From DASVDK01 sp036381125 [NCBI: Thermodesulfobacteriota bacterium] (lineage in GTDB: Bacteria; DASVDK01), in the NCBI GenBank assembly GCA_036381125.1, contig DASVDK010000077.1, positions 1 to 6,875 of the forward strand: a stretch of DNA of 6,875 nt, in the 5' to 3' direction. The notes under the pieces are model-generated. The model did not search any database, was not told where the DNA came from, and worked only from the letters and a program-made list of their open reading frames with translations. Both the position numbers and the translations under genes were made by a program. This document shows, piece after piece, positions 2,594-6,714 of this stretch. The first letter of the stretch is position 1. Every line of letters begins with the position of its first letter.

Positions 2594-3703
2594 CTAGCGC
2601 CCCGCCTCGCGCGACGGCAGGACGACCTCCGCCTCGCCGGCCGTCGTTGTGGCGCCGACCTGGTTCACCCCGCCGATCTCCACCTTCACGACGGCGCAGT
2701 CGCCCTCGCGAGCCTTCTCGCGCACCCGCCCGCCGAGCCAGAGGGTGTCGCCGTAGATCCCGGGGGCCCGCACCTGCACGTAGAGGCGCCGCAGGAAGCC
2801 GCGGTCCCCCATCCAGTTCGTCACGAGCGGCGCGACCCAGGCGAAGCGCATCACGCCGTTGTCGAAGGGCCCCGGCATGCCGCGCTGCGAGGCGAGGTTG
2901 AAGTCCTCGTGCTGCTGCGAGTACTTGACCGGCCAGCCGGTGACGGGGTTCTTGACGGTCGTGTGCGGGGACTTGAGGCAGTCGAGGTAGCCGAGCCGGC
3001 CGGCGCGGTAGGACGGGCCGATGGCCGCCTGCCAGCAGACCATGTCGCCGATCGTGAGCGGGCCCCGGACGATCTGCGGGAGCTCCTGGCCGACCTGGAC
3101 GTCCTCCCAGTGGAGCGTTCCGGCCGTCCGCGTCTCGTGCTGCTGGGCGGCGCCGATCTGCTCGAGCTCCTCGGCCGAGTAGCGGTAGAGCGGCCGATCG
3201 AAGAGCAGCTCGGTGCCGACCTGCGTCGCCCGGATCATCGTGCCGGTGGCCGTGCCGACGACCTCGTCCCGCTGGTTCCAGTAGGTGACCTCCGAGATGA
3301 CGAACACGAGGCGGCGGCCGCTGCTGCTCTTCTTCTCGTAGAGGTCCTTCTGGACGCTCTCGGCGCGCAGCCGGTCCCCCTCGAGGATGGGGCGCTGCCA
3401 CCGGTACTCGACCCCGCCGATGAGCGACGAGAGCGGCGCCTCCATCGGCGCGCCGTGCAGGATGGGGTAGAGCACCGAGGTGAGGTACGCCGGCGGGGCG
3501 GCGAGCGTGCCGTACGGCCCCCTGGCCGCGTACTCGGGGTCGAGCCAGAGCGGGTTGTCGTCGCTCGTGCCGAAGGCGAAGTGCCGGATGGAGTCGGCCG
3601 TGACGGTGGTGTTCCAGGCGGTCCGCTCCCGGACGACCTTGCCGGTCAGCTCGCGCGAGCGGGCGACGAACTCATCGATGCGTGACTGGACGGTGTCGGA
3701 CAC
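2594..3703 (-). CDS. Double hot-dog MaoC/FAS1-like acyl-CoA dehydratase
   Basis: A 369-residue protein with two hot-dog folds. The N-terminal half (about 15-160) is of the FAS1/HTD2-like dehydratase type, with DDNPLWLDPEYA at 48-59 and RPILEGDRLRAE at 104-115. The C-terminal half (about 195-362) is MaoC-like, with HEDFNLASQRGMPGPFDNG at 265-283 and the strand-rich RAPGIYGDTLWLGG at 312-325. Relatives hydrate enoyl-CoA or related thioesters, including mesaconyl- and itaconyl-CoA. The canonical Asp/His pair of hydratase 2 appears split: the N-half keeps the Asp (D49) but has Trp (W53) at the His position, while the C-half keeps His (H265) but has Tyr (Y261) at the Asp position. The GTG start follows an AGGAGGAGG stretch at 3708-3716. 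The gap to the ligase gene is 36 bp. The exact substrate is unknown; a neighbouring CoA ligase makes an acyl-CoA substrate likely. Confidence 0.9.
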   Translation of the reverse strand: MSDTVQSRIDEFVARSRELTGKVVRERTAWNTTVTADSIRHFAFGTSDDNPLWLDPEYAARGPYGTLAAPPAYLTSVLYPILHGAPMEAPLSSLIGGVEYRWQRPILEGDRLRAESVQKDLYEKKSSSGRRLVFVISEVTYWNQRDEVVGTATGTMIRATQVGTELLFDRPLYRYSAEELEQIGAAQQHETRTAGTLHWEDVQVGQELPQIVRGPLTIGDMVCWQAAIGPSYRAGRLGYLDCLKSPHTTVKNPVTGWPVKYSQQHEDFNLASQRGMPGPFDNGVMRFAWVAPLVTNWMGDRGFLRRLYVQVRAPGIYGDTLWLGGRVREKAREGDCAVVKVEIGGVNQVGATTTAGEAEVVLPSREAGR

Positions 3704-3739: not shown

Positions 3740-4663
3740 TCAGGCCGACCGCGCGCCGCTCGCTCGCCTGGAGGCCAGCGCCTCGGCGACGAGCCGCGGC
3801 ACGTCGGAGAACGTGTCGGCGACGAGCGCGCCCGCGTCGCGCAGGCGCCGCTTCTTGCCGGATGTCGAGCCGACGCCGCGGCCGACCAGGGCGCTCGTGT
3901 GGCCGAAGGCGGTCCCCTTCGGGACGGCCTCGAGCGCCTCGCCGACGACGAGCGCGACGAGCGGCTTGGTGAACGCCCCGCGGGCCAGCATGTCGGCGGC
4001 CTCCTCCTCGTGCGCCGTCCCCGCCTCGCCGAAGATCACGACCGCCTCGGTCTCCGGGTCGGCCTCGTAGAGCGGCAGGAGGTCGGCGAACGCGGTGCCG
4101 ATCATCAGGTCGCCGCCGATGGCAACGTAGGTGCTCTGGCCGATCCCGGCGCGCGTGAGGGCGTGACCGATCTCCCCGCCCATGCCGCCGCTGCGCGAGA
4201 CGATGCCGACCGGACCCCGGCGGAACATCCGGTCGGGGATCGGCCCGCCGGTGCCGCCGATCTTCGCCTTCCCGGGGCTGATCATCCCCTGGGAGTTCGG
4301 CCCGATGACGCGCACCCCGTTGGCCCGGGCCGCGGCGATGATCTCCGCGCCGTCGTGGTGCGGCACCCCCTCGGCCAGGACGACGACGGTCCGGATCCCG
4401 GCCTCGATCGACTCGAGCGCGGCGTCGCGCACGCCGCGCGCCGGCACGAAGAGGACGGCCAGGTCGGACGGGTGCTCCGCGACCGCGCGCCGGACCGTGT
4501 CGTAGACCGGGACGCCGTCGACCGACGCGCCGCCGCGTCCCGGCGCGACGCCCGCGACGACGGTGGTGCCGTAGGCGCGCATGTACCCGACGTGCCGGCG
4601 CGCCTGCTGTCCGGTGATCCCCTGCACGAGGACCCGCGTGCTGCCGTCGAGGAGGATGCTCAT
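3740..4663 (-). CDS. CoA ligase alpha subunit, SucD / citryl-CoA synthetase-like
   Basis: A 307-residue CoA-binding subunit of an ATP- or GTP-dependent acid:CoA ligase (succinyl-CoA synthetase alpha family; usual length near 290). The CoA-binding Rossmann part starts with GITGQQ at 15-20 and continues with GVAPGRGG at 38-45 and GPNSQGMISPGKAKIGG at 121-137; Ser124 replaces the usual Cys of GPNCPG. The ligase part has VSRSGGM at 155-161, GEAGTAHEEEAA at 212-223, and the phospho-acceptor His255 in FGHTSALV. Phosphoryl transfer is therefore probably intact. SRSGGM and GGTGG (136-140) recall ATP-citrate lyase rather than SucD (SRSGTL), as far as I remember those families. The ATG at 4663 overlaps the beta-subunit stop as ATGA, which signals translational coupling and a heteromeric enzyme. 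Its acid substrate is not established. Confidence 0.92.
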   Translation of the reverse strand: MSILLDGSTRVLVQGITGQQARRHVGYMRAYGTTVVAGVAPGRGGASVDGVPVYDTVRRAVAEHPSDLAVLFVPARGVRDAALESIEAGIRTVVVLAEGVPHHDGAEIIAAARANGVRVIGPNSQGMISPGKAKIGGTGGPIPDRMFRRGPVGIVSRSGGMGGEIGHALTRAGIGQSTYVAIGGDLMIGTAFADLLPLYEADPETEAVVIFGEAGTAHEEEAADMLARGAFTKPLVALVVGEALEAVPKGTAFGHTSALVGRGVGSTSGKKRRLRDAGALVADTFSDVPRLVAEALASRRASGARSA

Positions 4664-5868
4664 CGGTAGGCCAGCTCCACGATCCGCTTCACGGCGGCGT
4701 CGAGCGGGGTCGTGCCGTCGAGGAACTCCACCCCCGGCAGCGACGCGGCCAGGCGCCGCGCCTCCTCGATGTTCGGCCCGTCGAACCGGAAGACGACCGG
4801 GAAGGCGCGGGTGTCGACCCCCGCCTCGGCGAGGGCCCGGACGACCCCGCGCACCTTGATGTCGATCGGGATGAAGTTCGAGATGTTGCCGCCGACGATG
4901 AGCCCCTTGAGGCCGGGCCGGCGCAGCACGGCCGCGACCGACCGGCGCATCTTCTCCTCGACCTGGCCCGGGGTGATGTCGAACGACGTCGCCGGCCGGC
5001 CGCCGACCCGCAGCATGGTGTCGAACGAGAGGAGCCCGCTGCCGCCGCCGGTCATCATGAAGCCGATGTCGCCGTCCTCGAACTCGTTGAAGCGGATGGC
5101 GGTCGTCGGGTCCTCGCGGTCGATCGCCCGGATCTCCCGCTCGAGCGGCGTGAGCGGCCGCCAGCCGTTGGAGAGGTCGGGGTCGATGCGCCCCTCGAGC
5201 TCCGGGTGGCGCCAGAGCGCCTGATCGTCCACCGAGACCACGGCCGAGACGGCCACCGCCTCCCCCTCGGGGTCGAGCGCGAGGGGGTTGACCTCGACGA
5301 GCTGCGCGTCGGTCGAGCGGAAGACCCGGTAGAGCGCGACGAGCGCGTCGGCGACCGAGACGAGCGCCCGGCCCTCGAGGCCGGCCTCGGCGCAGCGCTC
5401 GCGCGCCTCGAACGGCCTGAGCCCCTTCAGGATGTCGACCGGCCAGACGTGCAGGGCGCCCGGCGCCTCCTCGGCCAGCGTCTCGATGTCGACGCCGCCC
5501 GAGGCCGAGAAGAGGACGATCGGCTGCCGAAGCTGGCTGTCGAAGGTGATCGACGCGAACAGCTCGCGCTCGATCGGCGCGAGGGCGCTCACGAGCACCG
5601 CGTCGACCGGGAAACGCTGCACCGTCGTGCCGAGCATCGCGCCCGCGGCGGCCGCGGCCTCGGCCGGGCCGTCGACCCGCCTGACCGCCCCCGCCTTGCC
5701 GCGCTTCCCCGCGGGAACGAGCGCCTTGACCACGACCGGCCCGCCCCCGCCGACCGCCTGCGCCGCCTCGCGCGCCTCGGCGGCGCTCCTGGCGACCCGG
5801 ACGGCCGGCGTGGCGACGCCCGCCTCCGCGAGCAGCGCGAGGCTCGCGTCCTCGAGGAGCCGCGCCAC
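4660..5868 (-). CDS. CoA ligase beta subunit, ATP-grasp, SucC / citryl-CoA synthetase-like
   Basis: A 402-residue ATP-grasp subunit, near the usual SucC length. The N-terminal domain shows VVVKA with K48, the nucleotide loop GKRGKAG at 54-60, SASGGVDIE at 121-129 and VEVNPLAL at 191-198 with the metal-ligand Asn194. The second metal-ligand Asp (D213 in E. coli SucC, aligned without gaps) is Ser208 here. The C-terminal domain carries TGGGSGLLSFDTM at 273-285, GGNISNF at 326-332 and RFDGPN at 361-366. The GGNISNF loop resembles the citrate-binding loop of ATP-citrate lyase (GGSIANF, from memory), where SucC has NIFGGI. It probably joins a carboxylic acid to CoA at the cost of ATP together with the alpha subunit; succinate is not a safe assumption. 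The GTG start is two bases after the regulator's stop, with GGAG eight bases upstream inside the regulator gene. Confidence 0.92.
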   Translation of the reverse strand: MARLLEDASLALLAEAGVATPAVRVARSAAEAREAAQAVGGGGPVVVKALVPAGKRGKAGAVRRVDGPAEAAAAAGAMLGTTVQRFPVDAVLVSALAPIERELFASITFDSQLRQPIVLFSASGGVDIETLAEEAPGALHVWPVDILKGLRPFEARERCAEAGLEGRALVSVADALVALYRVFRSTDAQLVEVNPLALDPEGEAVAVSAVVSVDDQALWRHPELEGRIDPDLSNGWRPLTPLEREIRAIDREDPTTAIRFNEFEDGDIGFMMTGGGSGLLSFDTMLRVGGRPATSFDITPGQVEEKMRRSVAAVLRRPGLKGLIVGGNISNFIPIDIKVRGVVRALAEAGVDTRAFPVVFRFDGPNIEEARRLAASLPGVEFLDGTTPLDAAVKRIVELAYR

Positions 5869-5870
5869 CG

Positions 5871-6623
5871 CTACCGCTCCGATCTCGATCCGGCCGCGGC
5901 GCCGGCGCGCGCGGGCCGGCGGCGCGGCCGCAGGACGGCGAGCCCGCCCCGCTCGGCCACCACCTCGGCCAGCGCGGGCGCCAGCTCACGCCCCGCGCGC
6001 TCCACGTGCTCGCGCGTCAGCCGCTCCGCCTCGTCGGCGTCGCGGCGCCGCATCGCGTCGAGGATCGCCCGGTGATCGGCGAGCGACACCGGGATCCGCC
6101 CCGGCCGCGACAGCGACAGGGCGCGCAGCCAGTGGATCTTCTGGTCGATCCCCCGGTGGATCTCCACGAGCGCGGCGTTGCCGCTCGCCGAGATGATGGC
6201 GTTGTGGAACCGCCGGCTCGCCTCGAGGTAGCGCGCGCCGCTCGGGTGGCCCGCCTCCGCCTCCATCCGCTGGAAGTACCGGCCGAGGGTGTCGAGTTCC
6301 GCGTCGGTCATCCGCTGCGTGGCGAGGCGGGCGGCGTAGCCCTCGGTCATGCTCTTGACCGCGTAGGCCTCGAGCACGTCCTCCGCGGTGAGCACCCGGA
6401 CGAAGGCGCCGCGACCCGGCCGGACGACGACGAGCCCCTCCTGCCCCAGCATCCGGAGCGCCTCGCGGATCGGCGTGCGGCTGATGTGGTAGGCGTCGGC
6501 GATCTCCGACTCGTTGATCCGGTCGCCTGGGCGGAGCTTGCCGCCGACGATGGCCTGGCGCAGGACGTCGGCCAGGCGGTCGGGCATCAGCCGCGGGACC
6601 GGGAGGTTGAGCTTGCCGAACAT
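5871..6623 (-). CDS. GntR-family transcriptional regulator, FCD type
   Basis: A 250-residue repressor-like protein. The N-terminal winged helix (about 12-76) has LRQAIVGGKLRPGDRINE, the recognition-helix region SRTPIREALRML at 48-59 and the wing GLVVVRPGRGAFV at 63-75. The helical FCD effector domain (about 80-222) has FHNAI at 139-143, DHRAI at 183-187 and EHVERA at 205-210. The metal-site consensus D-x3-H before the first His is Ser136 here instead of Asp. Ligands of FCD regulators are commonly organic acids, which fits the ligase and isomerase downstream. I chose the ATG at 6623 because GAGGG lies seven bases upstream; a GTG at 6698 would add a low-complexity Ala/Pro tail and place the start beside the predicted operator. 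The tail after about 225 is Arg/Ala-rich. As first gene of the operon, with a palindrome at its promoter, it probably controls itself and the genes below. Confidence 0.94.
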   Translation of the reverse strand: MFGKLNLPVPRLMPDRLADVLRQAIVGGKLRPGDRINESEIADAYHISRTPIREALRMLGQEGLVVVRPGRGAFVRVLTAEDVLEAYAVKSMTEGYAARLATQRMTDAELDTLGRYFQRMEAEAGHPSGARYLEASRRFHNAIISASGNAALVEIHRGIDQKIHWLRALSLSRPGRIPVSLADHRAILDAMRRRDADEAERLTREHVERAGRELAPALAEVVAERGGLAVLRPRRRPARAGAAAGSRSER

Positions 6624-6630
6624 GGCGGTT

Positions 6631-6635
6631 CCCTC
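6631..6635 (-). promoter_or_regulatory. Ribosome binding site for the regulator
   Basis: GAGGG on the minus strand, seven bases before the ATG at 6623. It decides between this start and the GTG at 6698, which lacks a purine-rich site. Confidence 0.6.
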
Positions 6636-6696
6636 GAGCGGCGCGGCGGCGGCCGCGCCAGGGGGCGCCGGCCGCGGCGCGCGCCGGGCGTCCGTC

Positions 6697-6714
6697 ACGA
6701 CTGTCGACAGTGGT
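6697..6714. promoter_or_regulatory. Palindromic operator candidate
   Basis: ACTGTCGACAGT at 6700-6711 is a perfect 12-bp palindrome. It extends to 16 of 18 symmetric positions across 6697-6714. It lies over the predicted transcription start, about 77 bp before the regulator's start codon. Its TGT-ACA symmetry is compatible with sites of FadR-type GntR proteins, which often have a T-x-G-T / A-C-x-A core. Autorepression by blocking the promoter is the likely role (inference). Confidence 0.6.

Follow-up and report, generated by a model that had tools for sequence, protein, structure and literature searches.

Citryl-coenzyme A (CoA) synthetase (CcsAB) and ATP-citrate lyase (AclAB, human ACLY) are thought to have descended from a ligase resembling succinyl-CoA synthetase (SucCD). 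CcsAB of Hydrogenobacter (PDB 6hxq) has two subunits: its beta subunit joins an ATP-grasp_2 to a Citrate_bind domain, and its alpha subunit, CcsB, is one that we take to stand alone without a lyase domain. SucCD also has relatives of altered substrate, namely SauCD, SqwKL and HpfYZ, according to the parts of PMC12890257 and PMC11489063 that were available. Here we describe a two-subunit CoA ligase encoded at positions 3740-5868, on the minus strand, of a 6,875-nucleotide (nt) stretch of DASVDK01 sp036381125, a Thermodesulfobacteriota bacterium (contig DASVDK010000077.1; the whole stretch is called the window). The pair is very probably an ADP-forming acid-CoA ligase, and a fair reading of the data is that it carries a citrate-type acid domain on a SucCD-like body. 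The explanation that serves best as a whole, which we put forward tentatively and at somewhat less than even confidence, is a ligase on the citryl-CoA synthetase/ATP-citrate lyase side that acts on a branched acid and is paired with a step catalysed by a MaoC-type enzyme.

The beta gene (4660-5868; 402 residues, GTG start) and the alpha gene (3740-4663; 307 residues, ATG start) are adjacent, their reading frames overlapping by 4 nt. Three domains of the family scored above their cut-offs (PF08442, 153 bits; PF02629, 79.5; PF00549, 50.2). The beta subunit has ATP-grasp_2 N-terminally (residues 4-197) and Citrate_bind C-terminally (238-370), and the alpha subunit has CoA_binding and Ligase_CoA/Succ_CoA_lig domains. 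Citrate_bind without Ligase_CoA was found in the window beta (27.4 bits) and in the beta of the one ortholog pair found, L004 (32.6 bits; Pfam cut-off 26.8), and Citrate_bind is likewise present in CcsA (59 bits) and two AclB proteins (190 and 258 bits). The reverse pattern, Ligase_CoA at 46.9-115 bits and no Citrate_bind, was seen in all eight non-citrate betas scanned (L001, L002, L003, L005, L009, L021, L067 and L076, comprising SucC, MtkA, SauC-context and one odd sequence). A Citrate_bind search of 11 genomes gave one match, in the genome of L004, and none of 14 controls matched. When the beta C-terminal domain alone was compared with PDB sequences by phmmer, the top match was citryl-CoA synthetase (54 bits), followed by SucC of Thermus (47) and E. 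coli (44), Chlorobium AclB (41) and human ACLY (28). The citrate-synthase-like lyase domain PF00285, present in a Sulfurovum AclA control, was not found in the window alpha, which ends at residue 307 and in this is like CcsB and unlike AclAB and ACLY.

The loops of the acid domain follow the same division. The preliminary description of this DNA had called a two-subunit CoA ligase from a set of motifs, and all of these, with their residue numbers, were confirmed. In beta they are GGGSGLLSFDT (residues 274-284; 5017-5049), where SucC has GAG, and GGNISNF (326-332; 4873-4893), where SucC has N-FGG; in alpha they are SRSGGM (156-161; 4181-4198) and GGTGG (136-140). The comparison strings that it quoted also stand when read from the sequences: GGSIANF, GGGASVVYSDT, VRRGG and SRSGGM in human ACLY, NIFGGI and GAGLAM in E. 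coli SucC, and SRSGTL in SucD. The corresponding CcsA strings are GGTANNT and GGGGSTVTIET, and both beta strings (as GGGSGL and GGNISNF) are kept in L004. Across 31 aligned betas, four features are shared by the window pair (window and L004) and all five citrate enzymes and are absent from all 24 others: GGG for GAG, the longer GG..N loop, GP for GT/GN, and ∼10-14 extra residues just N-terminal of the acid domain. The RP and T letters of that extra stretch recur in CcsA and Chlorobium AclB, not in the human ACLY, Methanosaeta and Sulfurovum sequences. The GGG and long GG..N loops and the RP.T stretch are thus points of likeness to CcsAB, and the lyases resemble the window ligase in Citrate_bind, a GGGAS loop, a GG(S/A)IANF loop, an alpha N(T/V)GG insert, (S/T)RSGG and a pre-FGH loop longer by three residues. 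Among the aligned alphas, three features set the window pair and the single AclA row apart from the other 20, none of which has any of them: the (G/N)(T/V)GG insert, SGG and a pre-FGH loop with three more residues.

The catalytic residues are those of the family. Alpha N123, S158 and H255 align with its phosphate- and carboxylate-site residues, a correspondence that rests on the sequences. The available part of PMC11489063 compares, in a published model, the residues at the phosphate, Mg and reacting carboxylate (N, S and H in alpha, G in beta), and in the alignment these positions are filled alike in the window ligase. The candidate phosphohistidine is alpha His255, in FGHTS.

The part of the site that would hold the rest of the acid is changed. 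We take human ACLY to contact citrate through Asn346, Thr348 and Arg379, a numbering that agrees with the human sequence. All five citrate enzymes read N/T/R at these positions, the window reads N/I/F and L004 N/I/Y; the Asn346 equivalent is replaced in 24 of 24 non-citrate betas. In the fuller N/T/R/R set the window reads N/I/R/F, its Arg361-Phe362 lying within VVFRFDGPN. Phe362 (4783-4785) had been placed at the lyase's second citrate Arg, and the alignment agrees, pairing it with Arg379. CcsA, in contrast, keeps the Thr and both citrate-site Arg, and the lyases differ from the window ligase in the same Thr and second Arg. Succinate, when bound to succinyl-CoA synthetase, touches alpha Tyr167 and the backbone of beta GIV with its far carboxylate, as given in the part of PMC11489063 that was available; the window has Gly at the Tyr167 position (alpha Gly163, just after SRSGGM) and the longer GGNISNFI loop in place of GIV. 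Since Thr348 and Arg379 have given way to Ile and Phe/Tyr, and the alpha Tyr to Gly, neither citrate nor succinate is likely to be the acid, a conclusion we hold with good though not full confidence. The earlier suggestion of an acid that is citrate-like but not citrate would fit these changes. With Asn kept, Thr changed to Ile and Arg to Phe/Tyr, the simplest fit would therefore be a dicarboxylate with a hydrophobic group replacing the further carboxylate of citrate. That this dicarboxylate is a branched, hydroxylated or unsaturated C5-C6 acid (citramalate, itaconate, mesaconate or a further alkylmalate, for example) is plausible but stays on the doubtful side of even.

The beta tree was built from 31 rows and 399 columns (20 of the 34 loci L001-L034, the window, L067, L076, L077 and seven PDB sequences), the rows being used as aligned by HMMER, some without their ends. 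The alpha tree had 23 rows, with CcsB and human ACLY left out and AclA cut to 330 residues. One MtkA row is included; SauCD-context rows are labelled by neighbouring genes rather than by assay, and the assayed SauCD, SqwKL and HpfYZ sequences are not among the rows. In the beta tree the window, L004 and the five citrate enzymes split from the 24 other sequences with support 100/99, so that the window pair lies outside the SucC rows and is not grouped with the MtkA row. The split was retained at 97/95 with CcsA as the sole citrate enzyme. In none of the beta trees made did the ligase fall inside SucCD or malate-CoA ligase, the placement that the preliminary description had set in advance against its own proposal. 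Within the main beta tree the pair lies between CcsA and the SucC group on a branch supported at 85/46; CcsA is long-branched and is not its sister. The window pair thus appears, from these sequences, to belong with the citrate side of the split, without a clear place inside the group of citrate enzymes.

L004 comes from a metagenome-assembled genome labelled Nitrospinota J063 (beta 57.9% identical over 356 columns, alpha 68.2% over 305). It was the one ortholog among 31 relatives obtained from 584 pattern matches in a scan of contigs; because peptide patterns reach only close relatives, the scan is no proof of rarity. In the phylum of L004 the ligase was present in one of five genomes, that of L004 itself. 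Searches gave no match for a beta profile (E 1e-70) or MaoC (E 1e-75) in 398 Pseudomonadota genomes (the phylum of G002), nor for alpha (E 1e-95) in 45 genomes of the phylum of G005 or, as a profile, in 396 Actinomycetota genomes (the phylum of G452), empty results that show little. Viral contigs held no relatives of the ligase, and plasmids gave 92 records related to beta, all below 60% identity, 40 of the 92 being listed.

Linkage to a MaoC gene was seen twice. In the window a MaoC-type double hot-dog protein (FAS1_DH_region by Pfam; acyl-CoA hydratase/dehydratase family; 2594-3703, minus) is encoded behind the alpha gene. A MaoC protein 72.3% identical to it is encoded in the L004 genome, on a different contig (L064) and at its end. 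Directly behind that gene come a ribosome site and the start of a ligase beta, which opens with ATG and is cut off by the contig end after 53 residues (L064 1-178). Aligned with the window beta, this fragment agrees at 23 of 54 positions and scores 91, against a maximum of 54 in 1000 shuffles. Judged on its sequence it is a ligase beta, of a subfamily that 53 residues would not fix. Over 51 bases its end and the start of L004 agree at 41, and it is perhaps a second copy or strain variant of the L004 beta. Near the contig end it has Glu at a position where the aligned ligases have Lys.

Linkage to the aconitase-family gene and to the ornithine cyclodeaminase (OCD)-family gene of the window was seen once. 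The LeuC relatives in the L004 genome (41-43% identical to the window protein) and its OCD relatives (35-39%) would, on these identities, not be taken as orthologs. The aconitase-family gene described earlier as sitting beside the ligase is real (264-1544) and belongs to the same run, but it lies behind the MaoC-type and OCD-type genes, and with LeuC at 41-43% set against 72% for MaoC, encoded near a ligase-beta start, its link to the ligase is weaker than had been thought.

Relatives of the MaoC protein on plasmids (28-36% identity, 29 records; four regions examined) occur in more than one setting. Two of them have two CoA-transferase genes, a further MaoC gene and one for a CoA-ester lyase as neighbours, a layout that by analogy recalls C5-dicarboxylate routes; Streptomyces and Variovorax relatives are in other gene settings. 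Mesaconyl-CoA is hydrated by MaoC-family enzymes and itaconate and methylsuccinate routes are opened by a CoA-transferase, as far as the available parts of PMC5592240 and PMC12290011, respectively, go. The likeness to the itaconate and mesaconate pathways is that a C5 dicarboxylate would be activated and then passed to a hydratase, of the MaoC family for mesaconate; the difference is that a CoA-transferase activates there, whereas an ATP-using ligase would do so here. By this analogy the MaoC context supports, without proving it, that such an acid is activated by the window ligase.

On analogy with the family, ATP would phosphorylate alpha His255, the phosphate would move to the acid, which the beta C-terminal domain would hold, and CoA would attack the acyl phosphate to give the CoA ester. 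Because the citrate-synthase domain is absent, no cleavage is expected and the product should stay a CoA ester, which the MaoC-type neighbour would then hydrate or dehydrate. We infer, rather than observe, the acid, the order of the steps and any roles of the OCD-type and aconitase-type genes. In this working the enzyme would be like SucCD and CcsAB, and we regard it as a genuine variant of the ADP-forming CoA ligases, without a previous assay as far as searched. SucCD and CcsAB each fail at least one of the defining features tested on the window ligase. It may, at somewhat less than even odds, stand for a separate stand-alone lineage, the third after citryl-CoA synthetase and SucCD: a CoA ligase that spends ATP on a branched dicarboxylate (citramalate, itaconate or an alkylmalate), is paired with a MaoC hydratase, takes over a job known from CoA-transferases and uses a citrate-binding domain that lacks the second citrate Arg. 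Among the matches listed in the openly available literature, judged by title and the start of the abstract, there was no paper on this enzyme, and none combined three of citryl-CoA synthetase, MaoC, CoA ligase and citrate-binding domain. Such a ligase, with a citrate-type acid domain, a SucCD-like body and a part-changed site, lets one ask which of the loop changes produce a citrate enzyme and which follow afterwards; it would also give a function to genes that score under the NCBIfam cut-offs for succinate-CoA ligase.

Several results weigh against this reading. The Citrate_bind match in the window is barely above its cut-off, and the best scores of the full-length beta and alpha are with SucC and SucD. 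The beta split fell to 85/90 once the motif columns were removed and to 75/90 with the lyases only (CcsA removed), long branches meet in the beta trees, and the alpha split (93/91) has AclA on a very long branch. The alpha subunit matched CcsB at 178.8 bits in phmmer, under bacterial and archaeal SucD chains. For a longer alpha C-terminal stretch the first four places went to SucD chains and the fifth to Chlorobium AclA, with CcsB much further down. With a 49-residue alpha fragment, a weak test, 12 human ACLY sequences outranked every SucD by a small difference (E 4e-5 versus 5e-4), the Methanosaeta and Chlorobium lyase alphas fell below several SucD chains, and CcsB was not listed at E 1. AlphaFold2 models, which rest on alignments dominated by SucCD rows, had a mean predicted local distance difference test score of 90.1 for beta and 80.9 for alpha, the alpha loops of interest being of low confidence. 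The beta model superposed best on SucC (Z 40.7, root-mean-square deviation 2.7, 376 residues aligned), then CcsA (33.7, 4.7, 390) and ACLY (30.7, 3.8, 380), and the alpha model on SucD (36.7, 1.9, 285), then CcsB (33.7, 2.4, 297) and AclA (33.1, 2.2, 285). The earlier view that the enzyme is lyase-type rather than SucCD-type therefore stands for the beta acid domain (Pfam, phmmer and beta tree) and not for the whole chains and folds, which are nearer SucCD. What Arg379 and Thr348 do in citrate binding is, furthermore, presumed here; the available part of PMC9504748 names Asn346, Thr348 and Arg379 as inhibitor contacts only. In the long MaoC family the DxNPxH His of the first half is Trp, Tyr or Phe in six of six long sequences, while the second-half His is kept in all seven aligned, so that the MaoC step may be a hydration or a dehydration. 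The ligase-beta fragment on L064 scores higher with a SauC-context row (108) than with the window (91). The genes recognised in the window and at L004 include no lyase for a citramalyl-type CoA ester.

The closeness to SucC and SucD would be explained most directly if the pair were a succinate-CoA or malate-CoA ligase isoenzyme with drifted loops. The overall fold, the whole alpha subunit and the catalytic residues are indeed those of SucCD, and the nearest NCBIfam models are the succinate-CoA ligase subunits, yet both fall under cut-off (beta 222 of 370 bits, alpha 277 of 336) and the malate-CoA ligase beta model PRK14046 reaches only 175 of 604. The differences are concentrated where the acid binds, in the acid-binding loops, the Tyr167 position with its Gly, the replaced GIV loop and the C-terminal Pfam domain. 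With the beta outside the SucC/MtkA group, and with a separate SucC-like gene, adjoining a gene read as malate dehydrogenase, in the L004 genome, we consider an isoenzyme unlikely. We give the same low standing to a citryl-CoA synthetase, or a ligase for a tricarboxylate like methylcitrate or aconitate, with a rebuilt pocket. The CcsA-like beta architecture, the retained Asn346 and the aconitase-family gene of the run all suit it, but Thr348 and Arg379, constant in the five citrate enzymes, are lost here, and no citryl-CoA lyase gene was recognised in the window or at L004.

A sulfonated or phosphonated short acid, as used by SauCD or HpfYZ, has slightly less in its favour and also seems improbable as the substrate. 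ADP-forming sulfoacetate and 3-sulfopropionate CoA ligases do exist (PMC12890257 and PMC11489063, in the parts available), and among the matches listed SauCD-context plasmid betas were the nearest full-length betas after L004 (37-39%). For a clade joining the window with the SauC-context rows, the main beta tree gave rejection (p 0.014), which favours the branched-acid reading; alpha (p 0.204) and a beta tree without the lyases (p 0.109) gave none, which counts against it. Behind the L004 ligase genes is an ATP-binding cassette transporter whose best NCBIfam models, below cut-off, are of 2-aminoethylphosphonate type; on the other strand is a class III CoA-transferase, also below the cut-off of its best NCBIfam model. 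Against a sulfonate substrate, the SauC-context rows (themselves labelled by context) carry GAG and NFCGAF loops and the SucC-type Ligase_CoA domain, not Citrate_bind, and neither xsc nor an aldehyde dehydrogenase gene is among the six window genes. A sulfite-oxidase connection was also considered for the molybdoenzyme sets in L001, L002 and the MaoC contig L064, and was dropped because the best NCBIfam models differ (for L002 and L064, PhsA versus DmsA/YnfE, below cut-off).

Plasmid loci L001-L003 are of separate interest. All three have SucCD-like ligases beside an aldehyde dehydrogenase, with a tripartite tricarboxylate transporter in L001 and L002 and xsc in L002 and L003. Their betas are annotated as ADP-forming succinate-CoA ligase (two) and succinate-CoA ligase (one), and by context they may be sulfoacetate-CoA ligases. 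A Spirochaetaceae ligase pair (L021, 7917-9925) has a long branch and odd loops (beta VTFGTI and CIRGT), its alpha being 46% identical to that of the window; it is neither typical SucCD nor of the window type.

The ligase belongs to a run of six minus-strand genes packed tightly across the window, with gaps, from regulator to aconitase, of 2, -4, 36, 4 and 34 nt. The first gene of the run in the window encodes a GntR/FCD regulator (5871-6698, minus) and ends 2 nt before beta. Beta, alpha and the MaoC-type gene are followed by the OCD/mu-crystallin family gene (1579-2589, minus; family match) and the LeuC/HacA-type aconitase-family large subunit (264-1544, minus), which has a probable TTG start at 1544 behind GGGAGGG and contains the three cluster Cys (SCTN, GCGTC). 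Its plasmid relatives are mostly haloarchaeal among the matches listed (20 of 156 records; six regions examined). In four of the six regions LeuC is in an operon with a CoA-transferase and a 3-hydroxy-3-methylglutaryl-CoA (HMG-CoA)-lyase-like gene, both missing from one other and one bacterial region. By analogy these operons hint at a hydroxydiacid route; neither of the two genes, however, is present in the window. The haloarchaeal plasmid operons of L046, L047 and L050 combine isochorismatase, amidohydrolase, CoA-transferase, HMG-CoA-lyase-like, LeuC-like and LeuD-like genes, and look like a degradation route that ends in cleavage of a hydroxydiacyl-CoA.

Rfam gave no matches in the window, and no aconitase small-subunit gene was identified before the window end. 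Downstream of the aconitase-family gene, at 1-254, are two interleaved families of direct repeats: a 50-nt unit in identical copies at 1-50 and 103-152, and a 62-nt unit at 49-110 and 193-254 whose copies are 90% identical. The start of a LeuD-type small-subunit gene might have been looked for at this place.

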